From Pseudisothecium myosuroides (Eukaryota; Streptophyta; Bryopsida; Hypnales; Lembophyllaceae), in contig OX637288.1 of NCBI GenBank assembly GCA_951799445.1, forward strand, positions 47,073,288 through 47,137,287: a DNA stretch of 64,000 nucleotides, in the 5' to 3' direction. The position numbers and the translations under genes are program-made. Shown in pieces: positions 4,211 to 61,600 of this stretch (position 1 is the first letter of the stretch; the number at the start of each line of letters is the position of its first letter). The notes beneath the pieces are model-generated. The model ran no database searches, was not told the DNA's origin, and saw nothing but the letters and a program-made list of their open reading frames with translations.

Positions 4211-6476
4211 TTAATCTTCATCAAATATATCCAGGTCGCATCCATATCGAGATACCATCGTTTCTCTATATAAATCCAATTCACCATCTACATGTCTCTT
4301 TAGGAAGTAATTTTCTGCCACACTTTTGACGAGAAAAAATAAACTAATTATACACACCATCCCTCCAACTATTGTCGGAACTATCATATACCATTGATAC
4401 TTCAACAATGGTGTCAATATGATAGTTCCAGCTATTGCAAATGCTATTATCACAAACAACACCGAATATGCCAAGAGGATAGAAGTCACCAAAAGATTTG
4501 TTCGAAGCTTTTCCACAATTTTCTTGATAAATAAATGGCTCCTTGGTAGCACACTTCGAGCACCACAAACAACAGTTCCAATGGCAAAATAGAAGGAAAG
4601 AGCATTGAATACCCAAAATGCACGGAGTGCAATGTCATGCTCAACATCCACATAATTGAGGTCGGAAGTTGAAGGGGCAGGAATAGAGCTTGAAGATCCT
4701 TCACCAAAATAAGATGTATAACTCAAAGGCGGTTGCAACCATGAAGCGAAAGTAACGCTAGCAATGAGAGCTGCACCCACAAGAATGGCGTTAGCCGCAT
4801 CCACATAGACTTGGCGATCTCTGTATAGTGTCTCCATGTAGCCTTTAACGGAATCACATTCCATGAGTGCTCTCTCAATATCCCCAAAGTGCACTCCCCC
4901 TTCGTATGCAATTTGGATAGGTGGTCCAAGGTCTTTGTCACATGCTTCATTCAATCGAATATGATCTTTGAAGGAATCCAAGAGTGCGATCACAAATTGT
5001 GTATTGCAACAAACAATAGCCACATAGAAGGCAGAGTAGAGATCATAATCCAAATCTTTCATGTCAAGTGCCTTGTCTTGAGCAAGATAGTGGACAATAT
5101 TTGTTATGACATGAGAATCGTGATAAGGGTATGCTGCAAGGTAATGCAACGGCTTCCTTCCCCATTTATCTTCGGCATTGACATTTAGAGAAGGCAACTT
5201 TTTCAGGAAGTCGATGTCTCCATGTCGCATTGCTACATGGAGGGGATGTTTCTTCTCTTCTTCATCTTCCAGAAGTTTTACCAACATGTCTACATTTCCC
5301 ATCTTGCAAGTAAAATCTAAAGGTGTTTGACCTTTCCAATTTTGGGCATTGACATTAGCACCCTTCTCCAAAAGCACATCCAAGATGTTGCTATCTCCAC
5401 CCCCAACAGCCAATTGAAGAGGTGTAAATATAAAGCGGGGCTTTTTTGAGGTCAAAGAATCAACCCAGAAGAAGAATGACGAAGGCCTCTCTGGATCCAA
5501 TTGCGATCCGCGTAATAGCTTATCTGGAACAGAGCTTGTTTCTAAGATTTTCCAAACCATCTTGAAATCTCCCATCAATATTGCCGCATCCAAGGATGTC
5601 ATCCTCACCCCCGACTCATGTCCTCCTGTAAGCGATTTGTCAATTTCAAATTCGCAGCTATCCAAACAAGGATCAGCTCGTAATTTCTCTACAATGCTCG
5701 CAAACCAAGGACGAGCCTCTGATTCATACGTTTTGTCTTCCAAAACAATTCCAATTTCAAGCAAGTGGAAAGCCCTGTCCCAATTCTCCTTCATGTTTTG
5801 TACTTGTTGCTTGTGCGTTAGTGACCATGCACAAGATGCTTCACTACCATCACCTCCGCCACCACCATTAGAGGCCGTCGGCTCTGTAGGTCCGGGCCCC
5901 ATTGTTGCAGCAGAAGTGATTTCTCGCACCTGCAAAAGCAGGCAGTCGTCACTACTCCACTCAGCAACCATACAAATCCAAACACACACTGCACTTGCTA
6001 AAATAGTAGTAACATTCTTGCATACCACTGTTGTCAGTACAATCAGTCTATTGATTCGTGCATGACCACTTCAACCCGAAATCAAAACGTACAATCGTAG
6101 CACAGGACTGGAACGCGAAAGCTCATACTTAGTTGCAAGCACAATACTAGTTGGGATCCAACCCCTTAATCAACGGTTTGCAGCAACGATTGTTAATAAC
6201 ACTCAAATGTGGTTCCAAAGTTCACATTAAACGTTCGTAGTAAACATGGTTCAATTTAATGAACAACGTATTGGAGCATGCGTGGTGGAGCGTGGTGGAA
6301 AACGCTGTAAGTTTGCTCAAGCATGTTCGCTGAATAAATTGTTCAAGCAGGTACCAAAATTAGTCATGTAGCTAAAAACGATGGCTAAGCTCTTCAAATT
6401 CCATTCAAATTCCAGAGGTGGCAGTCATTCTTACCTCAATCACGGACACCGGTTCGGTGATGGCGCTGCCTTCCAT
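4211..6476 (-). CDS. Ankyrin-repeat / PGG-domain membrane protein, copy 1
   Basis: Two exons give 586 residues: 6476-6435 (14 codons, ATG) and 5929-4211. The junction is GAG|GTAAGA to TTTTGCAG|GTG. The open frame could run on through the intron to 6028, but the paralog has the same small first exon, the same splice phase and a matching start (MEG/MED), so the spliced model is preferred. The N-terminal third is polar. The middle has about five ankyrin repeats, with typical pieces such as 'TPLQLAVGGGDSNILDVLL' and 'TPLDFTCKMGNVDMLVKLL'. From about residue 380 a PGG domain follows (YVDAANAILVGAALIASVTF) with about four membrane spans. Plant ankyrin-PGG proteins act at membranes in defence and stress signalling; the role here is unknown. 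It is intact, with no stops. Confidence 0.88.
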
Positions 6477-10159: not shown

Positions 10160-11640
10160 TATCCCACCTACCTCCCAAATGGCCGAGGTAGACATCCAAT
10201 TGGGGTTGTTCAAAAATAGTAAAAGAATTGAAAAAATTAAAAAAAACTACTCCATGTTTACAACTACCATGTGTACCTTCATTTTAAATTTCATACAAAA
10301 TTGACATATGACACAAAAGTTATGAGCAAAAAAACACATGTCCGAGGCTAAAGGGACAAAAAGTATAAGTGTTTCTTGCAATCACCTTGGTTGTTTTCCT
10401 GCAATATCAATTTTTTATTGGCCAATTTCCTCCAAATTGAAATTTGTACCAATTAAATTGCTAAATTTTTCATTTTTCTAGTGTAATAAAAAACATTTTC
10501 AAATTGAAACTACTAATTAAAATTGCATCCTTACTAGGAATTGAATTTGGCATAGCCCTTCACCATTTAAAGGTTAAAGATCCTCCCAATTCATCCAAGA
10601 TAGAAATAGTAATGAAAAATTTACACTAGATCAAAAGATTTTAATTAGGTATAAAAGTTTTAATCTTTTTCAAATAGTTCTTCTACTATCCCTATAAGGT
10701 ACTACCCAGGATTGGTATATAAATAAAATGTTTGTAGAATAACTGCTTATGGACATTGGGATACAATGTGCAATTGACTCATCTAACTCGTGAAGGAAAA
10801 AAGATTCATTAATTGAAAATGATAAATTTAACTCATCATAATGGAAAATTTTAATTCAATTGAGGCCATATTCATATCACTAGAATCAATGAAAAATATT
10901 GTATGTGTAGGTCCAACCAAAGAATTTAAAAAACAAAGTCATTGTATATACCAACTCAAAATTTCTATTAACATAAATATGACCCAATTTGGACCTCTTA
11001 GTTTGGTTTTTAAAGGGCTAGAGGTCCAAGTTGAGATTCTGAGATTTCTACAAGAGCTCAGATAGATTGTCACAATATGAATTGAATGCATTACAAAAGT
11101 TGCAAATCAAAGCCATGAATTGCGCAAGCATTTTTTAGTATGGATTTAACTCAAATACCCAAATTCCTTAAAACTCCCACACAAGTTGTTGACCTCGTTA
11201 GTTTGATACTTTATCCAACGAGGATGATACCCAAGTATGACCGCCACCTTACTCAAGTATTAGCCAGTGAATGTTATCCCATAACAATTGAAATCCACCA
11301 AGTGTTGAAAGGAATCGGGAAAATATCTTCCAATTTGGGTGGGGGCACCAGTTGCTTTTTGGCCCTATAAATTTCCATCCGTTTTTGCATCCTTGTTTTC
11401 AAAATGCAACTAGTTTTTTCCCACTTTCACTAACTAATGTGGAACAATTGTTTCTTATGTGTATAACTTTATCCTATAAAGACGGGCTAGTCACTATGGA
11501 AATCATCCTTTTCGATACTGTGGAAATCATTGGCTAAATAAAACAAAAACACTCATTGGAGGTTAAACTACTAGGCAAAGTTTTCCCTTTTCACACAAAA
11601 TTCTAAGGATGAACTTCTGCACTTATGTCGGGAAACTTAG
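10160..11640. other. AT-rich spacer, no gene seen
   Basis: Short frames only. The part from about 11,490 to 11,640 resembles 46,130-46,270 ('gaaatcatccttt...tgtggaaatcattggct'), so it belongs to a dispersed repeat. Confidence 0.5.
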
Positions 11641-11644
11641 TAGT

Positions 11645-11690
11645 GTGAGCGGAGAGCAGAGAGCAGAGAGCAGAGAGCGGAGAGCGGAGA
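11645..11690. repeat. 7-bp tandem repeat
   Basis: About six units of GAGAGCA/GAGAGCG in a row (minisatellite-like). Confidence 0.85.
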
Positions 11691-11776
11691 ATTCAAATTT
11701 TGGTAATCAATTTCGACAGAAAGAGTGCCTATTACCGTGGATTATGGAGTTATTGTAAGCCAAATTTGTTTAAAAT

Positions 11777-11935
11777 GTACCCCAATTCTATGGAATTTCA
11801 AAAAATATTTGCCAAGATTTTTGGAAAGGTACCCCAATGCCATGGAATTTCAAAAAATATTTGCTGAGATTTTGTTTGAAATGTACCCCAATTTCGTAGA
11901 ATTCTTACATCTAATTAAATCTAGCAGCAAGTAAA
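11777..11935. repeat. 52-54 bp direct repeat, about 2.5 copies
   Basis: Units begin at 11,777, 11,829 and 11,883 with GTACCCCAAT and continue with a shared 'atggaatttcaaaaaatatt' core in the first two. Confidence 0.8.
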
Positions 11936-14900
11936 ACCTAAAGGTGTTTAACACTAAATTTATAATGAAGGACTTTGTAGAATTGTTTTTCTATAGTGTA
12001 AGGATGCAATTAGGGCTGACGTCATCAAAACAAGTTTACAATCAAACAAAAACCCAAGATAAAGTACAAGATGACTTGCAAGGATACACGTAAAGAAAAC
12101 CAAATCCCAACTCATATAAAATCCAAATCAAAACAAAGCGTAGGAACTCAAATCACTAAATCTAGAAGGCCCCATCAACGGCTAGAACTACCATTATCCT
12201 CACCCTGCTTAGCCTCTAGATCTATATAATCCAAGACACGCTTATTGAAACTGCGTACGCGAGTAGGGGGTGGTGATGGTGCCTCCGCAAACTGATGTGC
12301 AATCCCACCAGCATATGGAGGGAGCTCGAATGCCTTAGGAGGACTTGCAAACATGTCCGCAGTGAGGACACGAATTGGACTCTCCTTTGGAACTCTGAAT
12401 AGTCAAGAAAAGTAAACAAATAAGCAGAAAGAAGAAACAAGGAATAGAGAAGAAGAAACTGCAAACAAACAAAGAAGAATGCAAACAACAAACTTACGCA
12501 CAGAGCAAATCGAAGTTGCGCTTCGCCATCTTCTGAGGAGGCGGAGCAAAAACAGACCCTCGTGGTTGGGCAACCTGACGGGAAGTAGTCTTTGGGTCAA
12601 GGTCTCGCATGGGCAGGAGGAGGGCGTCGAAAATGTCGAAATCCGCCTCGAGAGCCACAATATGGCGCTGAAGTGCGCGGCACGCAATAATAGAAGCACC
12701 TAAAACACTTAGAACCACATTGTGAGAAGTTGTAACACAAAGAAATAAAGTAGTGGAAAGAGGAAGACTGAAAATCAAAGAGGTTGAAAACAAACCTAGA
12801 CCGCATTGCCAATCCATCACGATGTCGTCCTTGTCGGTGAGGGCGGAAAAAAGGATGGAGTAAAACTCGTGACGTTTCTCACGAGCACCTCTCCAGGGCA
12901 CGCCGTCCTCCCTCATAGCCTGATTCTTTTCATCCGTGAAACTATTGAGCCAACCATCCCTCTAGAGGTTGTAACCCATCTTATCAAAAGCTGTGCTTCG
13001 TACCTTAAGAACAGAGTTTACCCGAACTAACACTTTGATGAAAAACTTGCGAGTCTGAAAAAATGAAAATGAATGTATTAGTATCAATAAATCCACAAAA
13101 TGCAACTAAACTTGAGATAGAGTAGAGGGAGAAAAACTTACTACTCCCGTAGGAACCATAGGTGACTGAAGGTCGAGGTCGTTCATGCCAAACCAGTCTT
13201 CAGCCACGTAGAAGTTCATAGTGTGTGCCCAGTTGTGGATATCCCTCGATACATTGGGATCAGCGGCATGAGTGAAGACGAGGATACCGTCGTCATGGAG
13301 GTTGGCGTTTGCAAAGGCAAACAGAACCTCAAAGTATGAAGTAGACCGCTTGTTCCAAGTTGGACCATCATTTGAGCAGGTAGAGATCTGTGGCACATGC
13401 AGGTTCTCGGGCACATCTGCAAAGAGAAAATCAATGCCCGTGTGAACCTTTTCCTTGGCATTGGATTGAGTACGACCCGCTCCAACCTACACAGAGAAAT
13501 TGTTGTGAGAACTTGAAGAAGTAAGAGAAATTGAATCCTAGAAATAAGAATGAATGTAGTAGAAAAAGAAATTGTATAAAAACCTTAGTTAGGAACTCTT
13601 GAATGCGGGTGTAGGCTGAATGGCGAATCCCGGTCTTCATAAGGTGCTCAATGACCTCCACCATGTCCACATTCTCAATCAGGGTGAGCATGGAGGGTTT
13701 CTCCGAAGAAGTGGCTGAAGTATCTGGTGCAATTGCCTTCCACTTTCGCGGCTCAGAGGGAATGGTGATGTCGCTTTGAGAAGGAACGGGGGCCGGGTCG
13801 GCAGGAGCAAAGGAGGGAGCGGTGGACGGACTTCCAACGACTGCAGTGTTGGGGGTAGAGGAAGGAGGTGCCGAAGCCTTGGAACCAGAGCGAAGGGACA
13901 TACGGGGTTGAGAAGGTTGGGTACCTGAGACTGTGCCAACCAACTTGCCCTTTTTGCCCTTGGGCATGTGTATTTGCTTGGCCACCTTCTCCTTCCCGTT
14001 GTCTCGGTCTGTAGAGGCTCCAAGTCAGAAATATGATCAAGCACTGGAGCTGGAGCAGTCAACGAGGAGTGAAGTGCCACCTTAGAGACGGGGATGAAAC
14101 CCCTGGAACAATCAATGTACCAACAACAAGCCTTGAGGTGGGGATCTAGGTACTTCGCAAACCTTGTCTCTGTATACATGAATTGGGTAGATTCCGAATT
14201 CATCCAGTCCTCCAAGTAAGGTGGTAGAAACGATGTAGAAATAGCTTGCTTGGGAACAAGCTCTTGGAAGATGTACCTGAAACACAAGGCAAAGGTTAGT
14301 AAGTGAAGGGTGGAAGGAAGACGAGAACGGCAGGGAGAGGGTGTGGAATGGATTTAAACCTGTAAATCACGCGTTGTATAGTCTGGCGACCACCAAACTC
14401 ATTTAGGTCGGAGGCTTTGAAGAATCTCGGATTTGCATTGTCGTCAGAGAACTGCTCAAAGGCCGTGTCGAACAAAAAGATCCTCCAATGGTCAACAAAT
14501 TCCGCAGGTCGTAATACACCCACGGAGACATCCCAATCAATGGGTTGAGAAAAGCTCGACTCCATGGAAGCAAACTCCTCCACCACATCATGCTCCAGCT
14601 GCATTATCACAAGTAGAAAGTAAGAATCCCAAAGAATGGTACAAAACAAACATAAGAAGGGGAGGGCAGTTAGAAAATGGACCTGAGCCCAGAAAGACGC
14701 TTTGTTCAGCCAAACGTCAAGAACCCTCTCCTTAAGAGGTGCTATGGAGGGAAACTTGTTACCGCCACGGACAGTAGGGGAAGAATTCCACCACCGGAGC
14801 CAAGCAGTCTTGAAGAGAGGTTGGATGTTTGCTGTGGCAATTTTATGGAGCTTCTCAAATGTCATGTCTGCGATTGGTGGAGAAGTGCCGATCAATCTAG

Positions 14901-16739
14901 AGACAAGACCCATGGTTAAGAATATAAAAAAGAATGTTGAAGTGGAATGCGACAAACTTGAACAAGAGAGGAGGGAGAAGATAACCTCGTCAAAGAATGC
15001 TGGCTCGTGATGCGAGTTTGCTACGGCGACGTACTTCTCAAAGCTCTTGGTACGAATAGACTTTCCAACCTTCTCTTCAGTTGAGGACTTGAGGTCATGG
15101 CCTTCCAAATCCCCACACCAGTCCTTTGATTCACTACTGTTGCATCCTTGTAAGCTAGAGCGGCTGCATCAGCATCAGCTGAGATTTCTCTCTATTGAGT
15201 AGAAATGTTAGCCCATGCAAATTGCGAGAGTGACAATCAGCAAGAAGAGCGGCTAGATTAAGGATTACCTTATAGAGGAAGGAAACGAAGACGTCCATCG
15301 TGAGAGGGTACCATGTGGGAACCTTGGACTTGGCGGTGGCACATGCCTGGTAATCATCCTTGGAAATCAAGTCAGCAAAAGCCTCCAAGGGCAAGGCACC
15401 GAAGGTGCGGATGTGAAGGAGTTTTGCCGGCACGTTAGACTTGACGTGGTCGTTCTCAGTTGACCTACGCAAAAGATTAGCAAGTATAAAGCAAACAAGG
15501 TCTGAAGGTGACGAAATCATGAAAAAACAAAAAAATAAGGCAGAACTTACCAGTTAACATCGTTCATGACATTTATAAGAACACCACTGTTCTTTCGCGC
15601 ATCCAAGGCAATGCAGTGCGGGAAAATATGCCAGTGCTCCTCCGTAGGATGAAACTTGTTGACATGTCGGTACCAAGCCGTGAGACAATGGTTGCCCTCC
15701 CAGATGAAGAACATCTTGCCAACCATGTGAACAAGGTCATCATCCTGCGCCATGAGTGAGTCAAACCGCTCACTAGCAGTCTTCCAGAGTGGGTTCCATG
15801 TAGAGACGATATCCTCAGTGACATCAACAACCTCGTCTTTGTTGTTGTAGATCGACACATAAAGGACGCGGTCGCCGTCACGGTAGCCAGTGACAAATTC
15901 ATTCTCCAATCGTTAAACATCGACCTCGTTAATTGGGCGTACAAGAGGCAAGGCACGCATTCGGCAGAGGGGAATGCAAAGGCGGGACTTATTTGTGGGT
16001 CAAACTCGGAGGCGGTTAATAACCGCTGTCGAGTCGGCCTTCTGCTGCGCTCGGAGTTGATTCTCTTCTATGTCCGGATCAGCCTTCTCTGACGGTTCGG
16101 CATAACGCAGTAGAAGAGTCGGAGACTACAAACAACACAAGGTTCAGTATTGAGCATATCAAATACTAGAACAATTAAATACTCCAACATACAATGTTTA
16201 TAAATGGAATTTGAGTACAATGATTCTACATGGAAATGCATATAGAAAGCGTAGCACGCTACTCAAAATTGGAGTACTCGGACGCCCGGAGACGTTGGGA
16301 ACGTCTAGGGTTGACCCAAGCCAAAACTCGGGTAGCCTCACGGGCCCGGCGCGTACGCTGATAGTATCGGAAGGCGTAACGCCTCCTTGCCTCACGTGCC
16401 GCAGACTCTGCGGCATGAGGAGGCGTAGGGGACTGGACTATGGGATCGTCCCGACGCCTACAGGGATGTACAACAGGGAGCGCTAATACTAGAAGATGTG
16501 ATGGATAGATATCCGTCACTGAACCAAGGATCGGACAAGTGCAAAAGCTAAATTCGTATGAATCCAAATCAATCACCTCTCGTCCCCCAATAGCAATGTC
16601 GTTGGTCACTGCTATAGAATTTGGCACAAGTGGCTCCGGAGCCAAGACAGCCTGAGATGGAACAATCTCCAAGGACTGCGAAGGGTCCATCTCCCCAGAC
16701 TCCTGCCAACAGAAGGCATGAATTAGAACAAACATACAC

Positions 16740-17410
16740 AGTAGTGGAGAACCTGGCGGAACCGTGGGGTTAATTAAGAGTGTTTCAAAAAGCCTGAAGA
16801 TGGAATTGAAGGACAAGTATTTTACATTGAAATGGCAAAAACAACTTCCAAAAAAGAAGTAATAACAAAAAGAATTTTTGTACACTCATCGTAATCTACC
16901 TAGGATTGGTCTCAAATAGAACAAATAAGCACAAAATTGCTGAAAATGAGAAAAAAGAAGCAAGATAGGGCAGCCCGAGGGAACCCCGCAGTTTCGCCAA
17001 GTTCTTTCAAATGGTGCCCGAATCAACTGCGCATAGCCGCATACAAATGAAATCCAAAGTGCAAGGATTCCTAAAATATGTTCGCGGTGCCTGTAGGAAG
17101 TAAGCGCAATTGACTATGTGCGTGGCGGAATTGGGGGAACCCTGCGGATCCGCGAGGTTCCTCCAGTTGATGCCTGAACGAACTACGCACACAATTGAAC
17201 ACATGAAACCTGACTGCAAGGAATTTAAAAAATGCTCGCATTCCCGAAACTTTGCATTGTGGTACCTGTGAGCACCCAACTGTGGCGCCTTAAATCACGA
17301 TGCGGCCGACATTGAGCGCAACCGACAATGTGCACGGCTGAATTGGGGAACCCCGCGGTTCCGCGGGGTTCCCCCAAGTGGTGCCTCAATCGTTACCCTA
17401 AACCCTAACC
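16740..17410. repeat. GC-rich hairpin repeats in the methyltransferase-like gene's intron
   Basis: At 17,344-17,373 GGGGAACCCCGCGG is followed by TT and its exact reverse complement: a perfect 14-bp-arm hairpin. Diverged versions sit near 16,748, 16,980 and 17,135, each of the last two followed, as here, by a 'tggtgcc/tgatgcc' segment. The units are about 155-210 bp apart. A related hairpin lies at 18,163-18,192. The GC content is far above the surroundings. Confidence 0.75.
17393..17410. repeat. Short telomere-like tract
   Basis: CCCTAAACCCTAACC: two units of the plant telomere repeat inside an intron. Too short to be more than an interstitial remnant. Confidence 0.6.
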
Positions 17411-18699
17411 GTAAATTCTGACTCTACGCTTGTGCAAAACCCTAAATCTGATGGAAGGCAACTCAAAAAACACCCGCATACAAGCTGAACCTGAACCGCA
17501 AAGCAAAAATTCACAAAGCAAAGAAGTTCCAACTAACCTCTAGAGCCGCAAGTAAAGCAGCGCCGCTTGATTCCATAGCAACGCCATTGTTCTCCCCATC
17601 GCTCGCCATTGTTCTCCGTTGATCAGAAATGCTCTTCGCGGACATTCCTCTCCCGTCTTCTACGTTTTCATCCTCTTCATCTTCTCCTTGTCGTCCGTCG
17701 ACTTCATCCATCTCGTCATCCTCTGTCTACATCCCCCTACCAAAATACAATAGTTTTCCCTTAGATTTTGAACCCAAAATTTATTATATTTAGTAAATTT
17801 TTCTACCCGGGGAGACGTCGAGACAATCGCGGAAAATTTTACCAAAACTAAGGGAAAACTTTACCCGTCACTAACGGAAAACTGGGTTTTGGGTCATAAG
17901 TGGATGCCACTTAGGGTAGGCACTGTGGCAAAGGGGTAAAATTGTAAAAAGGGTATCCACCCTAGGTGTTTGAGTACTTGCGACCCTAGATTCACCCTAT
18001 TCTGTTGTGATGGGGGTCCGTCACGACACGACATGTCGTGACGTCAAGGCATCGTCACGTTGTCACAATAGACAACCCTGCCCACACCCCCACTCATGCA
18101 CGCACAAGATTAAATGGACAAGGATTTGACTTTTTGAAATAAAATTGAAGAAGGAGGACTTGCACGGAGAACCCGGCAAAACCGCCGGGTTCCCCCACCT
18201 CGCCCTCCGCTGCTCCTGTACCCCTAATGAACTCTATGCGAGACTGGTGCAAAGCCGCGCAAAGCCTTAGATTGCAATCACGAAGCCACAAGCAGCACCC
18301 GTGGAGCCACTGACTGCAGCCGTGAAGCGCATGAGGAATAGAAGACTGCACGCAACAAAGGAAACTTGCGCATTCACAAAAACTCAAAAATCCAACAGCA
18401 TTCAGTAGACTCACCGCAAGTGCATTCAAGAATCTCTCTCTGCTTACGCCCATTGGTGTTCCACTCGGCTTGCCATCCCCCTTCATATTGTAGCTCTCAC
18501 GCTCACACCGCCTCTCTCCAACTTTCTCCAAAACTGTATCGCGCCTCAAGTAGCTTCTGTGCTCAATGAGAACAGTGGCGCGATTGCGTGGCCCTCCAGT
18601 GTCTTGCTCGACTTGCGCCGTCTCTTGCCCTATCGAGGCCGGTGTCTTGCTTGATGGAGGTTCTTGTTCACTCAAATCTAATTGACTGGTCCCTTCATA

Positions 18700-20030
18700 A
18701 ATATTCCCACTACCACCGCTACCCTCTTTCTCTAGAACACCCCTCCCTCTAGAGTTCTAAGGTAACCTTATCAACTTGGATTTTCATCCTCATCCTCAAA
18801 GATTTTCATCCTAATCCCTAAAAATCTACTTCTACCATCTATGCTGGACCAACATCCTAACTTTTGGAGATTAACTCCAATCGTTGAACGGATTGCGCCG
18901 TTGGCTCTCGATCGCCGTGTTTAGTCCTACATTCTCCTATCCCTCGTACCGAGGCCAAAAACCCATCGTAGGCTAATTTAGTTTAAAAATCAAATCGTGG
19001 TAAAATCCTAAATCTTGGGGGTCTCCTATTTTGAAAAATGTGAATAGCCTAGGGTCTCCGGTAGGTGCGAGAGAGTTGGAAAGGACTCTTAGTTGACTTC
19101 GTTTTGCCATCGTATGGTCCTGGAATGCCGGTCAATGTCGCGGGGACCCCGCCACGTAGTAAATTCCCGAGGAATCCCGCCGGTTCGAGTACTTGCCGCT
19201 ATCGGAATGTCATGAAACTTCACGGAGCGCATTATTAACATAAAAAAGGTATGCTAATTTTTAGTGAGATTTTATTGTAACCTAAGTAATTTCCGTGAAA
19301 TTTCCGTTGGAGGTTAGAAGGGTTGACCACCTGAAAAAGGTTCTTCTGCAAATTGGAAGATGCCGGAAATTTTCACGTGACCTCTCAAGGAGTCACATGA
19401 AAGACATGTAGATGCGTTTCCGTACCTAGCACGATTGGTCAATGGAGATCAAAACTGGCCATCTCCTTGAATTAGCGACGGTGCGGAAATCTTCTGTAGG
19501 TGGAGGAATCTTGGCGAATTGATTTCGCCGTTGGATTCCTAGCATGGGATTTGCCCTAGAACACCATCCTTGGGTTGTAGATTCCTCCACGGGCCCGGTC
19601 TTGCGTTAGTGGCTCTTACATGCTAACAATTGGGATTTGGGGAATTCGTCGATCTAATGGGGAATTCTAAATCTAACTCTAGGACCCGACCTAATGGCCT
19701 CACTGTGCATCCCTCGGACCGACTTAGCCATGAATTGCCACATTCATGGTGGGATTTAGCTCTTTTGGGGCTACGTGACTCAAATCCTCCAAATTTAGCC
19801 ATTTTGTTATTTCTATTCTATTTTTAGGCAAGGTTTGGGGAGATACTAAGTATAAATACAAATCTAGACCAAATACTATAATGGGTATGACACAACCCTA
19901 TTTTGATTCTACACTCTTTTTATGGCTTTTTGTATACTTTTATCAACTTTAAATTGCAAATTTCCAAAAAAATAATTCTACGAGTCCCAAGTGACCAATA
20001 GGAAGCTCACAATGCCCCTCTGTCCTTGAA
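18700..20030. other. Intergenic, no gene assigned
   Basis: Moderate GC, with stretches resembling decayed coding or transposon sequence, but no family recognised. It separates the methyltransferase-like gene (minus) from the Harbinger transposase (plus). Confidence 0.4.
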
Positions 20031-21966
20031 ATGCGTACAGCGGCCATGGACCTCCTCAATATTCCATTGGAACTCGTTTCCCTTGCCTATGTCATGCTTC
20101 TACTACTATTCAGCGGAAGCCTCGATGAAGTGAACGTGGCTCGTAGGGCGCTACAACAATTCAAACTATAGACTATCATGGCTTTCTTGGACGACAAATT
20201 TGGTTATTGGATGAAACCGCGCTCAACCACTTGGTTTTCAAGATTCATTTTACATGAGTACGACAACGAGCGCTGGGTGCAGATGTTTCGCTTCACAAAA
20301 CGTTCAGTCTTCTCTCTTGCTCAGCATCTAGCCTCTGCTATTAGGAAGAATGACACTAATTATCGTTTGGCTATCTCTGTCGAACTACGTCTAGCTTGCA
20401 CTCTCTTTAAGCTTAGCCATGGCGCCAATCTCCTTATCTGTAGTGAACTTTTTGCAATTGGTCGGAGCAAAGTGTCATCAATTTTGCGAGACGTGGTTCA
20501 CGCTATCAACGACTTGCTTCATGGAGAAGCAGAAGAACTCACTTGGCCCAGTGGACCGGAGAATTTCTCAGCCATCACCGGTGACTTCCAACAACTATGT
20601 GGACTTCCAGGAGTTCTTGGAGCGATAGATGGAACTCAAATTGCCATTGCAAAGCCTAGCTCGTTGGATCACCAGATTACTATTATTTCAAATTTGGTGG
20701 CTATTCTATCAATTGCCAGGCCGTTGTCGATAGTTCTAAACTCTTCTTGGACTTGTACGTGGGGATGCCCGGATCCACCAACGACTCCCGCATCTTGCGC
20801 AAGTTGACACTTTACCATCGTGGCCAGCGTCAGACTCTTTGGGATGCAAGCCTAACTTTTCATGGTTTCGCACCATATTTACTTGGGGACGCTAGATACC
20901 CCTTGTTGCCCTAGCTAATGGTGCCACACCGCCATCAAGGACCGCTCTCGGTAGCAGCTGAGCTTTTCAACCGACAACTGAGCAGAGGGCGCGGAGTCAT
21001 TGAAAATGCTTTTGCTCTGATGAAATTGTCTTTCCGGGAGTTGCACACAAAAGGGTAAATGCACTTTCGGGTGGCTCATTTTTGGCAAAAGTCCAAGTCC
21101 CAAAAGTCCTTTTTTGTGAGTAAATTTTTTTAGAGTGAAATGCTTAGAAGTGAATTTTGCAAGAAACAAATTAAAAAAAAATCTAAAGCATCTAGCTTTT
21201 TAATCTCTTGTAGACCTTGGAAATTATTATACTTTAGGGAAAAAAAAATTTGAAAAAAAAAAAATTTGGTAATGAAAAGGGACTTTGGAAAATTTAGTGT
21301 TTAAAAGTCATTAAAAAGTCCCTAGCAAACACATAAAGAAGATCTACATTACAAGCCATTGATTTCTAGAAACATTAGTTCAAACTCACTATTAGAGATG
21401 TAGTTCCTAAAAGTCCCTTGGTTGACACAAAGAGGTAAAAAAAGTCCTTTTCAACTTTTGCTGACAGCAGATTTGTCACATCCACTTTTATTCAAAAGCC
21501 CCTAGTGCTTACATACTCTATAGAAAAAAAATTAAAAAATCATAGGACTATTGAACATCAAGTTAATTTACCTAAATCAAGTTGTTTCATAGAAAAAAAA
21601 AAATTTAAGTGCCCTATAGATCAATTTGAAAATGAAGTGTTTGCAATTTTCAATAATGTGACAAGAAATTGAGCCACTCAACCATGCATCTACCCAAAAA
21701 CGGATATGGATGTCACCTTTGTGCTCAACATGGTCACTTGCTGCGCCATCCTGCACAATGTGCTTATAAAACAAAACCATCACGATGTTGAGAGATTGTT
21801 GGAGATTGTGGGTGCCTTAAGTTCCAGTGCTAACAAGGGAGGAGCCGTGCCCACGCCTACAGCTGCGGTGGACAACACCGCTGATCAATGTGACGACGAA
21901 GCTGGTGAAATTAAGAGACAGGAGCTTGCTGTTTTCCTTTCACTTCAGCGCTTGCTGCCTCTGTAG
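20031..21966 (+). pseudogene. PIF/Harbinger transposase (DDE_Tnp_4 type), broken
   Basis: The frame begins with ATG at 20,031 (MRTAAMDLLNIP), meets a stop TAG at 20,169, and continues to about 20,680, where a 1-bp shift occurs. Downstream it reads DYYYFKSGGYSINCQAVVD, the usual post-DG segment. All three catalytic acidic residues can be seen: D in GAIDGTQ, D in LLGDARYPLLP and E in VIENAF. The Trp after YPLLP is now TAG. The sequence is interrupted at about 21,055-21,700 by AT-rich DNA (intron or insertion), then resumes at MDVTFVLNMVTCCAILHN, the family's C-terminal ILHN box. It would have catalysed cut-and-paste transposition together with the Myb-like partner encoded convergently at 22,658-23,930. 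Cannot be active as it stands. Confidence 0.85.
21055..21700. other. AT-rich insertion or intron within the Harbinger transposase
   Basis: It splits the transposase between 'FRELHTK' and 'TDMDVTF'. The left edge offers a weak GT (GGGTAAAT), but the right edge has no clear AG, so an insertion is at least as likely. It contains several copies of 'aaaagtcc'-like motifs. Confidence 0.5.
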
Positions 21967-22657: not shown

Positions 22658-23930
22658 CTACAAGTCGACAATCTCGTTGAGGAAGTCGACATCAGTGGTC
22701 TCGGATGACGACGTACTGGGACCCGCTGCCGTAGCTTCAGCAGTGTTCTCCGGTGGCAGTGGGGTCCCAGAGGAGGTAGAGTCCGAAATCCAGTGTGTGG
22801 GCAAGCGACAATCAAGCCCCACACTGAGGATTGTCAATAAGTTAGCTAGACACTGGACCACTTCCGCTTGCTTTAGATAGTAAGTCTTGCATTTTCGTTT
22901 GAAACTCTAGCATGTTCTTGTAATTGTAGGTCTCGATCTCTCTGATATTGCATTTGTTCTGTAAAAAGACGGAAGTAGACGTCAATCTTTGTTTTTTCAA
23001 TGTCATGACCCGCTTCCGCCATGTCCCTCATTTGCACCGCCATAGCCTCTCCAGTCGCCTATGTGGCATCCGCAATGAGTGAATGACCTGGTAAACTTTT
23101 ACGACGAACGGCAGTACTGCCGGAGCGCCGTCCACTTCCAACATCTCCCGTATTGGAAGAACTGATAAATTGCGGAACAACACCTACGGGGATGGAGCCT
23201 CTCCGAGGCGGACTGGGATTGCGTTGTGTGAGTACGACAACAGGACGAGTTGGCTTGCTCGCTTCCACGCCAAGCGGGGACTGCGTGGAGTGAGTGACGT
23301 CGTCGCTGTTGCCAGCAGCTGCGGAGTCGTCTAAAGTGTCTTGGAAAATGTCGTTGCTTGATGCAAGTTCACTTTATTTTCACTGCATGTACCGGCCGGC
23401 TTGTAGTTGGAATCTTCAGGCGCCATGAAGTCGCACGTATGAGGCGGTTGTATGGCCGGTCACTGGCCATATCAGTCGTGGATGAGGAAAAACGCGTCCT
23501 GCGGGAAGGATCTCGGCAGGCCTTCCGCTTTTCGTTGAACAATGTTCATATTCCAATAAGTGAACTCATTGGTCCCACTCCGCGCTAAAAAGTCTGCAAT
23601 GCGCTTATACTCCAGAATGAGTTGATTCCACTTGCTCTTGCAAGCGGATCCATCTTTCAAGCATGGGGAGATATTTCCATTCATGATCACCGCACTCACG
23701 TGGAGCCACTTACTGGCGTTTGGATTCATGAGATCACGGCAATCAACAGTGTCAACCTCTTGCATGAAAAGAGAACGCTTCATTGCAATGAGGGCTTTAA
23801 TCTCCATCGCGCTCCAGTTACAACCACATTCCTTGCGCGGTCGTTTTGGAGGAGACAGAGCATCGGCAGGACGACTAGGTGCAAAGGAAGCTGCAATTCC
23901 CAGAAGGGCCTATAATCGGGCTACCAAACT
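22658..23930 (-). pseudogene. Myb/SANT-like accessory protein of the Harbinger element, broken
   Basis: The frame holds PPKRPRKECGCNWSAMEIKA at about 23,850-23,790, then a trihelix/SANT-like region (KSKWNQLILEYKRIADF) typical of the second protein of PIF/Harbinger elements, which binds DNA and helps the transposase. Past a stop after FFLIHD the coding text resumes as a Ser/Pro/Arg-rich linker (NPSPPRRGSIPVG) and a helical tail (EKTKIDVYFRLF), then shifts frame to YYLKQAEVVQCLANLL and ends near 22,658. In-frame stops include TAG at 23,910-23,912 and at 23,059-23,061. Convergent with the transposase, as is common in these elements. Confidence 0.72.
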
Positions 23931-31451: not shown

Positions 31452-33660
31452 TCATTTCTCTAATGTATATCCTTTATCTTTTAAATAGTTTCTCACTTTT
31501 TGGTCTGATCCCTCATTATCTATTTTAATCTGTATTGAAGTTAGTTCTATTATATTTTTAATCCAAAGAGCTAAACTAAATATACACAACATCCCTCCAA
31601 CTAATGTTGGAACTATCATACACCATTGATACTTCAACAATGGTGTCAATACAATAGTTCCAGCTATTGCAAATGCTATTACCACAAACAACACCGAACA
31701 CGCCAAAAGGATCGAAGTCACCAAAAGATTTGTACGAAGCTTCAACACAGTCTTCTTGATAAATAAATGGCTCCTTGGTAACACACTTCGAGCGCCACAA
31801 ACAACGGTTCCAATGGCAAAATAGAAAGAAAGGGCATTGAATACCCAAAATGCACGGAGTGCAATGTTGTTCTCAACATCCACATAATTGAGGTCGGAAG
31901 GGGTAGGGGCAGGAAGAGAGCTTGAAGATCCTTCTCCAAAATAGGATGTATAATTCAACGGTGGTTGCAACCATGAAGCAAAGGTGACGCCAGCAATGAG
32001 AGCTGCACCCACAAGAATGGCATTGGCTGCATCCACGTAGACTTGCCGATCTCTGTACAACGTCTCAACGTAGTCTTTGATGCCATTGCATTGCATGAGG
32101 ATTCTCTCAATTTCCTTGAATTTATCTCCCCCTTCAAATGCAATTTGGATAGGAGGTCCAAGGTCTTCATCACATGCTTCATTCACTCGAATCTGGTTTT
32201 GTAATGAATGCAGAAATGCTGTCACAAATTGTACATTGCAGTTAAGAACAGCCACATAGAAAGCAGAGAGGTTTTCTTTATCCAAAGCTATCACATCAAG
32301 TGCCTTGTTTTGAGCAAGATATTGTACAACATCTGACATGACTTGGGAATTGGAAAAACGTCTTATTGCAAGGTAATGCAGTGGCGTCCTTCTCTTATGG
32401 TCCCTTGGATTGACATTTTTTTCTGGTTCTGGCAATTTTTTCATAAAGTCGACATCTCCATGTCGCACAGCTATGTGGAAGAGACCTCTCTCATCATTTT
32501 TCAGAAGTTGTTCCAACATAGGTACATTTCCCATGATGCAAGCAAAGTCTAAAGGTGTATGATTGAAGGAATTTTGGACATTGACATCAGCGCCCCTCTC
32601 TAGGAGCACTTCCACAATGTTGCTATCCCCACCCATAATGGCCAAGTGAAGAGGTGAAAATAATATAGAGGCGCTCGTAAAAAGTATACATATGAAGTCT
32701 CCTATTTTACTGCCCGAATTCTCGAGCGATCCGCGTAATACTTCACCTAGATCTGAGCTTTTTTCTAAGATCTTCTCAACCATCTTGAGGTCCCCCATCA
32801 AGACTGCCAACTCCAAGGAACTCAACTCCAACCTCCATCCGTCGACTTCTAGTTCGCAGCTATCCAAACAAGGATCAACTCGTAATTTTGCCACAACGTT
32901 AGCAAACCAAGGATCAGTCTCGAAATTGTCTCCCAGTTTAGTTTTACTATATGTCAAAACCTTTTTCCAATTCTCCTTCAAGTTTTGCACTTGTTGGTCA
33001 TGCATCAACGACCATGGACAAGATGCGGCACTACCATCTCCTCTGCCACTACTGTCGGAGGTCGTTGGCTCTGCAGGTTTGTGCCCCATTGTCGCAGCGG
33101 AAGTGATCTCCGGCTCCTACAAAGCAAAGGCAGTCGTCACTGCTTCACTCAACAACCATACAGATCCGAACACACTGCACTTGCTAAAATACTAGCAACA
33201 TTCGTGCATACCACTGTTGCCGGTACAATCAGTCTGCTCATTCATGCATGAACACTTGAACCCAAAAACATGCACAATTGTAGCAGAGGATTGGAACGCG
33301 GAAGTTCATAGTTGCAAGCACACTACTAGAATCCAACCCCTTAACCAATGGTTTGCAACAAAGATTGTTGATGACACTCACATGTGGTTCCAAAGTTCAC
33401 ATTCAATGTTTCTAGTAAACTTTGTCCAATTCAATGAACAACGTTTTGGAGCATGAATGGTAGAAAATGTTACAAGTTTGCTCAAGCATGTTCTACAAAA
33501 AGCATGTTTGTTGAATAAAAAATTTGCTCAAGCATGCACCAAAACTAGTCATGTAGCTAATAATGTTCCTAAGCCCTTCAAATTCCATTCGAATTCCAGA
33601 GGTGGCAGTCATTCTTACCTCAACCGCAGGCACCGGATTGGAAACAGCAACGTCTTCCAT
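31452..33660 (-). CDS. Ankyrin-repeat / PGG-domain membrane protein, copy 2
   Basis: Two exons give 568 residues: 33660-33619 (MEDVAVSNPVPAVE) and 33116-31452. The junction is GTTGAG|GTAAGA to CTTTGTAG|GAG, in the same phase as copy 1. Ankyrin repeats include SPLHLAIMGGDSNIVEVLL and TPLDFACIMGNVPMLEQLL. The PGG domain and its membrane spans are nearly identical to copy 1 (YVDAANAILVGAALIAGVTF). The C-terminal tail differs completely, ending in NYLKDKGYTLEK rather than LDIFDED, so the two proteins may differ in partners. Intact, with no stops. Exact biological role unknown. Confidence 0.88.
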
Positions 33661-45600: not shown

Positions 45601-47255
45601 ACAAATACATGAAAATTTGATTTATAAATTTGAATCCAAAATAATCCTACAAATATATAATGCAATAGTCATGGTTGTACCCGGAGGGTTTCATCTTATG
45701 ATTTTAGATGTGTGGCATTATATTCCATGGATATGTCGCCCAAGGCTTCATTTCATTGTTTTAGTTGTTTGGCCTCATGACTCCATCATTGCCATGTCAT
45801 GGCCTTATTCCATTGTTTTAATCATTTGGCCTCATGATCCTATAACCAAGTCATATCTGAGTGACTCTTCACACTTAGTACATCCTATATTCATCAATAC
45901 AAAACTTTTAATCATCAAATATTGGCTAAATAATTTATAGAATGAAAAAATTGTTTTTTTGATGAAAATTTTATTAAAAAAAAATTCAAAAAATAAAAGA
46001 ATTCTAAGATCATTGGATAATTTAATAAATCCACAATTTTGAAATAAAAAATAGTCAAGTGAGAAAATCACACATATTTAGAAATTAAATATAAATATGA
46101 TTAACCCTTAAAGGACAAATTGGTGACCTTGAAAATCATCCTTTTGGAAAGTGTGGAAATCATTGGCTTAAAAAAAAGCAAAAGCACTAATTAGAAGACA
46201 TGCTATTGATAGAAGATCTCCCTTTTTTATAGCAAAATTCCAAGAATGAATAGTTGTACTTCTATCCTATATATGAGGGTTTCTCTGTCAATCATTGGAC
46301 ACAAAATGTCTGCGGCATCGTTTATGGTTTAATTAAATTTAATATAATATACTTTACTATATATATAAGTTAAATTTTTATTCAAATGTTGATCTAATGT
46401 CTAATGTAAATGAATAATGACTAATTCATTGTGAAGATAAAATTACATACCTTGTCATCAAAGAAAAAATGTGATTTAAAAAAACAATTGGCTGCTGAAT
46501 TGTTATAATTTAACCTAAAAATTTTCATTATTAAAAAGCCTTTTTGAAAATTAAATACTTAGTTCTTCTACTTTAATCTATGTATTTTTTATGTAAATTG
46601 TTTAAAATAAAATAAAATATTTTTCTTTATAATTATTAAATTAGGTCATTTTACATACATGCACTGATTTTTTTTTTCATACTTGAAGAAGCTAATAAGG
46701 CAAGTTCAGATTTTATCAATGTCAGTACTTCAATTTTTGTATACGTTACAATATGAAATTGTAAAATTTTAGAATAGATGTGAGAGAGCCATAAAATGAT
46801 TATATGAGATCACTAATACAAAAATGACTTCCAAACCAGAAATCATATCACAATTATTCTAAGATGAAAATGGTAGGAAATTTCTTGGTGTTTATTATGT
46901 AAATGTTTTTAATCTCTAAGAATGATTCTATTTTGATTAGAAAGTGATGTTTCTTTACTAGAATTCTATTTTTTTATACTTTAGGAACATGAATTTAAGT
47001 CACATCATGAAGCACAAACATTGCATTGTTAATTCAAGGGAATTTTGGGTATTTCTTTAACCAATCAATGTTTGACTTTTGAAGGAAGAATTATGAAGTT
47101 TTCATTATTATTTTTGAAGTTGAAGATTCTCCGAAAAATATCAATATTAGTTCCCAAAACAAAACATTCATAAATGGTCAATTTCATTTATATCCTCATT
47201 TATATTTTGTTATTCAATGACAATTTTAGATTTTGAAACGCTTATGTCAATGGCA
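45600..47255. other. AT-rich spacer before the succinyl-CoA ligase gene
   Basis: A left end of the TTAA family (TTAACCCTTAAAGGAC) is at 46,101. 46,130-46,270 matches 11,490-11,640. No gene. Confidence 0.5.
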
Positions 47256-47260
47256 CAATT

Positions 47261-48265
47261 ATGATGATTAGAGTATTTGGAATCATCACTCGTCATTCAA
47301 GAGTGAACAATGAATTCCATGCATTGTTGCGTAGCTTTAACAATTATACCAAGTCTATCCGTTTCATGTCAAAACCAGCTGTCTTTGTTGACAAAACAAC
47401 ACGACTTATCGTGCAAGGCATTACTGGTAAAAATGGAACATTTCATACCGAGCAAGCGATTGACTACGGAACCAAAGTTGTGGGTGGCGTCACACCCCAA
47501 AAAGGTGGGACCGAACATCTCGGCCTCCCTGTATTTAATACCGTCGCCGAAGCCAAGAAGGGCGTACAAGCAAATGCAACCGTAATATATGTCCCTCCCA
47601 AAATGGCCGGGAAAGCGATCATGGAGGCTTTGGATGCTGAATTAGATCTTATTGTTTGCATCACGGAGGGCATACCTCAACATGACATGGTGAAAGTGAA
47701 AGCCGCGTTGTTACAACAAAAGAAGACCCGTTTAATTGGTCCCAATTGTCCCGGAATTATTAAACCCGGCGAATGTAAAATTGGCATCATGCCCGGATAC
47801 ATTCACAAACCCGGTCGGATTGGCATTGTTTCAAGATCAGGAACGCTTACATATGAGGCGGTGTTTCAAACAACCGCAGTCGGATTAGGGCAATCAACAT
47901 GTGTTGGGATTGGCGGCGATCCTTTCAATGGCACGAATTTTATCGATTGTCTTGAATGTTTCGTCAAAGACCCACAAACCGAAGGGATCGTGTTAATAGG
48001 CGAGATTGGAGGCTCAGCTGAAGAAGATGCAGCGCAATTTATTATCAAGAGTAAGACCCAAAAACCAGTTGTTTCATTCATTGCGGGACTCACAGCTCCA
48101 CCGGGCCGGCGGATGGGTCATGCCGGAGCCATTATTTCGGGAGGCAAAGGTACGGCTCAAGATAAAATCAAAACACTACGGGGGGCAGGTGTAACAGTGG
48201 TAGAATCACCTGCACAAATTGGTCAAGCAATGTACAAGGTATTTAAAGAGCGTAAACTTTTGTAA
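47261..48265 (+). CDS. Succinyl-CoA ligase (succinate thiokinase), alpha subunit, mitochondrial
   Basis: A single open frame of 334 residues starts at ATG 47,261. The first about 35 residues ([17 protein letters not shown]...) are basic and hydroxylated, as in a mitochondrial presequence. The rest follows the plant protein: CoA-binding Rossmann segment ([18 protein letters not shown]), [38 protein letters not shown], and the phospho-histidine loop [15 protein letters not shown] with His at about residue 287. With the beta subunit it converts succinyl-CoA to succinate in the TCA cycle, making ATP or GTP. No stop or frame break. No intron, no poly-A tract, and visibly higher GC than the flanks: possibly an old retrocopy, still intact. 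Confidence 0.93.
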
Positions 48266-59383: not shown

Positions 59384-61600
59384 TCACCAATAATCTTTAC
59401 AAGCCATTCTTGAAGTGATGAAAGCGATTCACATTCCTCACCACAATCTCTTTCCTAGTTACTTTGGAGATCAACTTGGTTGCAGTATGGCAATCTGAAC
59501 ACACCCGAAAATTCTTGTAAATACGAATCAGTTTACTAATAGGTGTGTTGATAAGTCCATACGCGATAGCCAACTTCTCACTATGAGTGCAAAGGGAAAA
59601 CTCCTTATCCTTCTCGTCAAAATTGTGCAACACAGGCCGGGTATCTGGAAGGTAACCTTCAGTCTTGATTTTCTCAGTCAATCTGCTCAGCTCTGCATAT
59701 ATCTCCTTTGTTTCTGGGTGAGATGTATCCTCTACAACAAAGGCATGAATCTTGTTATCAACTTCGATCCATAGCTACGCCCCGGTTCCTTGCGTATACC
59801 TCTTTGCTGCATCATAGTGGACACCAATGATACCTCCTCCCACTTCTCAGCTGCAGCATAGATGTTGGACAGGAGAGCGTACGTCGAGGCATCCTTGGGG
59901 TCCAACCTGACCCGCTCTCTTGCCGCAAATTCACCCAACTCCTCATTCCCATAAGATTTACAAGCACCAAGCAAAGCTTCCCAAGTTGCTCCATCTGGTT
60001 CAACTGGTATATCATCAATCAAGAGCTTTGCTTCCTCCAGACGACCTGCCCGCCCAAGAATATCCACCATGCAGTTCCAATGCTGCACATTGGGAACGAT
60101 GCCATAATCTTACGACATAGCAAGAAAGAGTTGACGGCCTTCATCAACAAGACCTGCATGACTACAGGCCAATAGCACTGCCACAAATGAATACCCATCA
60201 GGCTTCACGCCGGCTGCATTCATTTTCCTGAAAACTTCTAGAGCTTCAGACCCACACCCATGTTGCGCAGGTCCTCCAATCATCGCAGTCCATGTTCTTA
60301 CATCACGTTGCTCCATTTCGTCAAATACCAATCGCGCATCATCGATACTCCCACATTTCGCATACATGTGGACCAGAGCATTGCCCACACGCACATCTGA
60401 CTCAAATCCCCCGTCACGGGCATGGCTGTGAACCTCCTTCACACACTTCAAAGACCCTGCGCTTGAGCATGCATTCAGGATGCTCATATACGTGACTGCA
60501 TTAGGTTTGAAGCCCTCCCTGAGCATTTGGAGAAACAATAGATATGCTTCCTCCCCACACCCACTCTCGGCATATGCGCCAATCATCACAGTCCATGAAA
60601 TCGAGTTCCGTTCCTCCATTCTGTCAAATTGATCTGGCATCATCGATACTGCGACACTTTGCATACATGGGGACCAGAGCATTGCCCACACACACATCTG
60701 ACTCAAATCCCCCTTCACGAGCATGGCTGTGAACCTCCTTCACCCACTCCAAAGATCCTGCGCTTGCACAAGCATTCAGGATGCTCATATAAGTGACTGC
60801 ATTTGGTTTGAAGCCCTCTCGTTTCATTTGGACAAGAAGTTGATATGCTTCCTCACCACAACCGCTTTCTGCATATGCTCCAATCATGACATTCCAGGAA
60901 ATGACATCACGACTGGTCAACTTATCAAAAGTTTTCCTTACGCAAGGAGCGCAGTCCCCACACGCACATCTGATTCGAAGCCATCATGTCTGATTTAGGC
61001 ATGAACTTCATGTCCCCATTTTAAAGCTGATGGGCTCGCACAGGCCTTCAGGATGCTCAAATAAGTAACTGCATCCAGCTGCACACCTACTTGGCGCTTT
61101 TGATTGAAAACCTCCATTGCATCTTTTGCACGACTGTGCAGAGCATAACCTCCAATCATTTTGGCCCAGCTAAATACATCCTGCTCCACAAGTTCATCAA
61201 ACACTCCGCATGCATCTTCCAATCTCCCACATCTGATATAGGCACTTAGTAGGTCGTTTGCCACATATATATTCTGCTACATTCCACTCTCAATGATGCA
61301 TTCATGAACTTGCTTGACTGCTGTAGGATCTTCCTGCTTCACGGACCGCTTCAGAACTTCAACAAACATCTACAAGCCTGTAGCCATGCTTCGTTGTAGT
61401 CGGTTCTTCAAAACATCAACTGCTTCACTCGTGGTTTTTGCGCTTTGCATGTGCGCACTGCCACCGCCAACTTGAACGGTTTTGCTTTGACTATCTTGCA
61501 CTGGTGGGCAAAGTGTTTCTTCTTCCAAAATTGCCCTCGGGTAACCTGACTCATCAATTAACTCTTCATGAGAACAACCTTCATATCATGGGAAAGTTAA
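59384..61600 (-). pseudogene. PPR-DYW RNA-editing factor, degenerate
   Basis: Reading across breaks gives tandem PLS-type pentatricopeptide repeats (for example VYLSI/TYMSILNACASAGSLEW, NALVHMYAKCGSIDDARLVF), E motifs, and a DYW deaminase domain with the zinc signature HSEKLAIAYGL and RVCSDCHTATKLISK. Such proteins bind organellar transcripts and deaminate C to U. Breaks: the last codons, where HHFKNGL runs into TAA but KDYW-stop is readable two bases out of frame, ending at 59,384; two extra bases near 59,772 (GRS-W); stops TAA 60,110-60,112, TAA 60,995-60,997, TAG 61,277-61,279, TAG 61,370-61,372; a shift near 60,635; and a missing half-repeat near 60,945. The nearest Met of the frame is at 61,450. 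Not translatable as it stands. Confidence 0.88.

Follow-up and report, generated by a model that had tools for sequence, protein, structure and literature searches.

A gene on the minus strand of a 64,000-nucleotide stretch of the Pseudisothecium myosuroides genome (the window; contig OX637288.1, positions 47,073,288 to 47,137,287) is a broken copy of an accessory gene carried by a family of large land-plant DNA transposons. In the accessory protein, a ParB/Srx-fold domain is fused to a second domain that is related by sequence to beta-class DNA methyltransferases. We class the element as a Mutator-like transposon whose second gene is of a new kind. We propose, with a probability of about one half, that the protein is a self-recognition and probably anti-silencing factor that acts like Arabidopsis VANC, possibly in ParB/parS fashion, and keeps the transposon's own copies recognisable and expressed. 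That a ParB-fold protein is encoded beside repeated palindromes suggests that it recognizes the element carrying it. To our knowledge, there are few worked cases beyond VANC of plant DNA transposons defending their own expression. In this many-copy, recently active family, which combines a ParB-fold protein, a methyltransferase relative whose catalytic motif is rewritten, and private palindrome arrays, protein and site form a pair that can be tested directly. Should the link between them be true, a bacterial partition-type fold would be working in a eukaryotic nucleus.

The initial annotation had suggested that the gene travels with a mobile element, which is borne out by dispersed near-identical copies, inverted termini, a target-site duplication (TSD), and a transposase-like neighbor. 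The genome searched has a size of 388 Mb and consists of 222 contigs, of which the 11 largest are 17-55 Mb long, and at least 150 matches to the ParB exon are spread over all 11 large contigs (150 of 423 candidate places were scored, all 150 with E ≤ 3.1e-33). Many copies are intact, with no stop in 30 of the first 50 ParB-exon rows. Two young copies, A (C4:28818625-28834769) and B (C7), are approximately 99% identical and delimit a DNA transposon of 16.1 kb. They align in two blocks (98.7% and 99.1%) with sharp ends, and the sole break is near 9.45-10.99 kb of A, absent in B. Copy A has imperfect terminal inverted repeats (TIRs) of 46 bp with 82.6% identity that begin 6 bp in from the ends, the outermost 6 bp being different, and it is flanked by an exact 10-bp TSD, AATCGCAACA. 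Mutator-like transposons have TIRs and TSDs of 9-11 bp, and copy A has both. The flanks of copy B hold no matching TSD; A and B are the only copies testable at both ends. Within subfamily A, the ratio of nonsynonymous to synonymous substitution (dN/dS), measured on the ParB exon, is 0.16-0.56 (15 pairs from six copies).

In element A, the ParB-methyltransferase gene is on one strand, and a long transposase-like gene is divergent to it. By eye, this second gene has D...D...CxxH-like motifs in its middle and a SWIM-like finger at its end. Pfam gave no match for its catalytic part and E 0.16 for SWIM, and the Mutator-like label is based on motifs and TSD length, not on Pfam. The transposase neighbor was looked at in copies A, B, and the sibling on C8, which carries an interrupted counterpart (56% and 48% identity). 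As described in the available text of PMC6446971, Mutator-like elements (MULEs) have TSDs of 8-11 bp, TIRs, a SWIM finger in many cases, and known second open reading frames (ORFs); the element here is similar in its TSD, TIRs, and second gene and has a putative SWIM-like finger. The additional motifs or ORFs given there are PMD, FAR1, SET, OTU, DUF, or unknown, and neither "methyltransferase" nor "ParB" occurs in the main text (PMC6446971). The left flank of element A has an open frame resembling a piggyBac-type transposase by eye (L056, 446-1537), and another part of the same flank recurs, inverted, beside copy B.

In the genome, the window gene has one full-length sibling at 94% (C8); three further copies, C1, C2, and C9, are interrupted. 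The window copy aligns with C8:16.51-16.52 Mb at 94.4% identity over 7126 columns with sharp ends. Its left terminus is near 11630-11633 (GGGAAACTTAGTAGTGTGAGCGGAGAG...), and its right part, with the transposase, is missing; the C8, C9b, and C2 stretches run on beyond 18728. The C2 and C1 copies also have, next to or inside them, the repeat that adjoins the cut side. A candidate terminal repeat, GGYAAAGTTTTCCCTT at 11574 and 17848 (two matches vs 0.15 expected), was rejected because, with the left end at 11630, the first position falls outside the element and the second inside it.

The gene model has 12 exons, from ATG 17711 to TGA 12175, and encodes approximately 1229 residues (reading frames, splice sites, and the spliced product were checked). 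Spliceable exons were confirmed, with the quoted strings in the stated order, but the 13 in-phase exons originally modeled were not: 12 were found, and some junctions are out of phase, with the splice phase at 14986/14867 ambiguous. From a ParB-like exon, the gene reads through a long middle part to FADVPEN, which resembles motif IV, and on to MDWQCGLG, which resembles motif I. The ParB-like box KMFFIWEGNHCLTAW is in exon 16125-15551, FADVPEN and ILVFTH are both within exon 13486-13142, and VMDWQCGLG|AS spans the 12796/12699 splice; read from the spliced product, these motifs follow the order claimed for them. Three in-frame stops interrupt the copy: the ParB exon has a TGA and a TAA, and exon 13054-12796 has a TAG. 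Two frameshifts, near 15095 and 14010, break it as well. Its true 5' start is uncertain because coding sequence may extend 5' into the open stretch 18094-18756. The features are as follows.

11630..18728, minus strand: truncated transposon copy, the stretch homologous to the C8 sibling
17538..17711, minus strand: exon 1, ATG at 17711, 5' start uncertain (open frame and splice signals)
16317..16703, minus strand: exon 2, 3' boundary approximate
15551..16125, minus strand: exon 3, ParB/Srx-fold domain with GNHC, one TGA and one TAA (relatives, family model, and fold search)
15269..15464, minus strand: exon 4, STENDHVKSN..., continuation of the ParB part (splice phase; relative P0001 spans exons 3 and 4)
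14986..15191, minus strand: exon 5, middle part, frameshift near 15095
14683..14867, minus strand: exon 6, middle part
14360..14598, minus strand: exon 7, middle part
13584..14276, minus strand: exon 8, middle part and low-complexity linker, frameshift near 14010 (counterpart exon in relatives P0131, P0190, and P0197)
13142..13486, minus strand: exon 9, motif-IV-like FADVPEN and strand ILVFTH
12796..13054, minus strand: exon 10, through motif-I-like DIVMDWQCGL, in-frame TAG
12498..12699, minus strand: exon 11, remainder of motif I, GASIIACRALQRHIVALEAD (intronless relatives P0128, P0138, and P0164)
12175..12394, minus strand: exon 12, TGA at 12175
16746..18195, no strand: imperfect palindromes of approximately 30 bp near GGGGAACCCCGCGG-nn-CCGCGGGGTTCCCC, at 16746, 17134, 17345, and 18166, in intron 1 and upstream
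18738..20011, no strand: unrelated repeat adjoining the cut right side of the window copy (89-91% in C2, twice, and in C1; 66% in C9)

Exon-length queries were compared with 5.8 billion proteins by a word-based search, which sees close relatives only. The ParB part (exons 3-4) has 115 relatives, all with E ≤ 3.5e-12, and the methyltransferase part has 113, all with E ≤ 4e-12; this match strength puts the window gene far beyond chance. Relatives of both parts are exon-sized fragments, presumably from plants. The full-length protein found no match at E ≤ 0.001, probably because the relatives in the collection are exon fragments. Exon borders in the inspected relatives agree with the window gene model. 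Three relatives (P0128, P0138, and P0164) lack the motif-I intron and read straight through the splice, and P0001 is continuous across exons 3 and 4.

The ParB/Srx fold of the exon-3 domain is well supported by a structure model of the family and a fold search, as the initial annotation had claimed. The phosphate-binding box of the ParB/Srx superfamily is G-x-[HR]-R-x-x-A, and this box is present in the family. GNHR was found in 73 of the 86 readable ParB-part relatives (the remaining 29 of 115 were unreadable by pattern), and the window copy has GNHC. In Pfam scans of 54 relatives of the ParB exon, all rows were weak, the best being DUF6551 at E 0.012 in four of the 54. Profile searches of PDB by sequence gave no match at E ≤ 1 in one case and one unrelated match at E 0.92 in the other. 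In phage records, tblastn with the ParB part gave 92 at E ≤ 10 (best 0.6), with none annotated as ParB among the 30 listed.

Beta-class N6-adenine and N4-cytosine methyltransferases (PF01555, phage methylases, M1.HpyAVI) have motif IV before motif I. The same order is read directly in the window gene, collinear with PF01555, with similarity around motif I and a weak collinear match at motif IV. Together with weak tblastn matches to phage methylases and profile alignment by hhalign, this order bears out the relationship to phage and bacterial N6-adenine methyltransferases that had been suggested. The main hhalign match covers columns 172-226, and a second, alternative match covers columns 17-26 over the DPP region; the real profile scored 59.0, and 55 of 60 column shuffles scored 18.5 or less. 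Several observations weigh against this descent. The other five shuffles scored 131-137 as degenerate alignments of 2-7 columns, and a run with 30 shuffles had a mean of 15.9 and a maximum of 137.8, with 23.6 for the reversed profile. Taken alone, the motif-IV match has a probability of 0.8%. The phage set was picked by tblastn matches to the same family and is not independent at motif I. The 22 phage records matched by tblastn include duplicates (17 distinct phages, 14 of them annotated as methylases). The PF01555 gathering score was missed (15 bits for spliced exons 9-11 vs 26.7), the full-length model had no match, and PF01555 was matched at E ≤ 1 in one of 60 relatives. The structure model of this half is poor (predicted local distance difference test score, pLDDT, 56), and the structures that it matches are a mixed set. 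Sequence, and to a lesser degree fold, supports descent of the C-terminal domain from beta-class DNA methyltransferases.

One alternative to self-recognition by binding is an active DNA methyltransferase, directed at N6-adenine, N4-cytosine, or another target, by which the transposon marks its own DNA. Descent and the relation to phage methylases favor activity, as does conservation among relatives of the GxG of motif I and of the acidic residue after the next strand (ALES/ALED), and binding of S-adenosylmethionine (SAM) by the domain is plausible. However, motif IV of the family is D[V/I]PE(N) in place of DPPY, and DWQCGVG replaces D-x-F/T-x-GSG. A DPPY-type [DNS]PP[YFW] motif IV occurs in none of the 54 relatives that have the four columns, and nowhere in any of the 113, so ordinary N6-adenine or N4-cytosine catalysis is doubtful. 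Non-catalytic partners such as METTL14 have altered motifs, which the family-wide D[VI]PE resembles. We consider an active enzyme unlikely, though it has to be taken seriously. Of the expectations for intact relatives, GNHR has been kept and DPPY/SPPY has not.

Palindromes near the gene bear on what the protein may recognize. Element A has a 79-bp unit repeated 10.6 times upstream of the ParB-methyltransferase gene, and perfect CCTCGTnnACGAGG occurs six times in this array; palindrome columns are only slightly better conserved than others (0.94 vs 0.89). At L055, a 115-bp tandem array (72-1174) with palindrome ACCTCGTTGACGAGGT is upstream of an intact ParB exon. Synonymous divergence between L055 and A is saturated (proportion of synonymous differences, pS, approximately 0.82; nonsynonymous, pN, approximately 0.41). 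In blastn comparison, the palindrome is the sole common part of the two otherwise unrelated arrays, and a 14-16 bp palindrome, CCTCGTTNACGAGG, is thus common to the upstream tandem arrays of two distant subfamilies. With two mismatches allowed, two or more sites are present at 23 of 30 ParB loci, for a total of 93 vs 0.12 in shuffles. Because 22 of these 23 loci belong to subfamily A, the independent evidence comes from two subfamilies. Sites are absent at seven of the 30 loci (four of window type, L048, L052, and L054).

The window subfamily is without CCTCGTTNACGAGG-type sites and has iterated palindromes of another type. The imperfect palindromes of approximately 30 bp number four in the window copy, five in C8, six in C9b, six in C2, and five in C1. 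The C9 stretch, from which this part of the element is missing, has none, and neither does the remaining window; the mean in 20 shuffles per stretch was 0. L062, from a third subfamily, has no CCTCGTTNACGAGG and a single, non-iterated 18-bp palindrome, TCAGTCGGGTCCGACTGA; its listed palindromes differ from the 30-bp type, for which no targeted scan was made. Palindromes iterated near the gene are thus of a shared type in two subfamilies, of a different type in the window subfamily, and not iterated in L062.

The palindromes could instead be transposase-accessory sites without any role in anti-silencing, and the protein part of the transposition machinery that binds ends, chooses targets, or cuts DNA. 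The gene adjoins a transposase-like gene, and nucleases are reported among ParB/Srx-fold proteins, both consistent with such a role. Palindrome sites in elements A and B, however, are between the two divergent genes, with none at the termini, and we regard this explanation as doubtful.

Under the self-recognition proposal, the protein would have the palindromes as its binding sites, in the way that ParB uses parS and VANC its motif arrays, a link between protein and site that we infer. It may then load as a nucleotide-gated clamp and spread along the element, where the methyltransferase-like domain could mark the element or compete with host silencing. The outcome would be that the transposon's own copies stay recognizable and expressed. 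A bolder version, which we offer tentatively, is that the transposon took up ParB/parS-like self-marking: a clamp fused to a repurposed methyltransferase would load at arrays between divergent genes, spread, and block silencing, and palindrome and protein would co-evolve as private subfamily codes.

VANC proteins bind a short motif accumulated in tandem repeats of introns and upstream regions and induce loss of silent marks, according to the available text of PMC5735166 and PMC10398659. Like VANDAL, the family described here is a plant DNA transposon with a transposase and an additional gene. Both have a short motif in tandem repeats in introns and upstream, which changes fast in VANDAL (PMC5735166, in the part available), and sequence-specific self-recognition, here as a proposal; the comparison is with descriptions of VANC. 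The available parts of PMC5735166 and PMC10398659 mention no ParB or methyltransferase domain in VANC. The VANC21 motif is YAGTATTAY, which is non-palindromic, whereas the site here is palindromic. ParB/parS systems (KorB, Noc) share the ParB/Srx fold, the G-x-H-R-x-x-A box, and, with some subfamilies, repeated short palindromes beside the gene. They differ in that the present protein is in a eukaryotic transposon and is fused to a methyltransferase-like domain, with putative cytidine triphosphate (CTP) use and DNA binding. No ParA was noticed by Pfam in four translated stretches of element A, in which no search was aimed at ParA.

Transposable elements can capture methyltransferases. Retrotransposons with C5 methyltransferases and Mariner-type elements with C5 or Methyltransf_26 enzymes are described in the available text of PMC5890265 and PMC3627910. 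An element-borne methyltransferase is the likeness, and the C5 or Methyltransf_26 type is the difference; "ParB" does not occur in the text of PMC3627910 at hand. No ParB-methyltransferase gene in a eukaryotic transposon was found in the open-licence literature as far as it was available, including PMC6446971, PMC3627910, and PMC12695648, with Repbase outside this scope.

The initial annotation had also suggested entry by horizontal transfer, and recent gain of a phage ParB-methyltransferase gene would agree with the phage-like fold and motif order and the weak phage methylase matches. This transfer is not supported. Among 5.8 billion proteins, no relative beyond the one exon family was found at E ≤ 1, and scans of IMG/VR and GTDB gave 24, 1, and 80 stretches that fit the patterns, none of which was confirmed; both searches reach close relatives only. 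The gene is also intron-rich and deeply diverged inside a plant genome, and we consider recent phage acquisition improbable. An ordinary expanded host gene family would fit the introns and the long intact frames under selection, but it is highly improbable given the inverted termini, the TSD, the transposase-like neighbor (seen in A, B, and C8), and the near-identical dispersed copies.

Other features of the window include a remnant with HTH_Tnp_4 at 20172-20807 on the plus strand (E 0.003) and a Myb/SANT-like protein at 23472-23909 on the minus strand (PF13837, E 1e-6), which together look like a PIF/Harbinger-type element. A related pair of ankyrin-repeat proteins with a PGG domain is encoded on the minus strand at 4211-6070 and 31452-33116. 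A succinyl-CoA ligase-type open frame is at 47237-48265 on the plus strand, and a fragment of a pentatricopeptide-repeat protein is at 60110-60739 on the minus strand.

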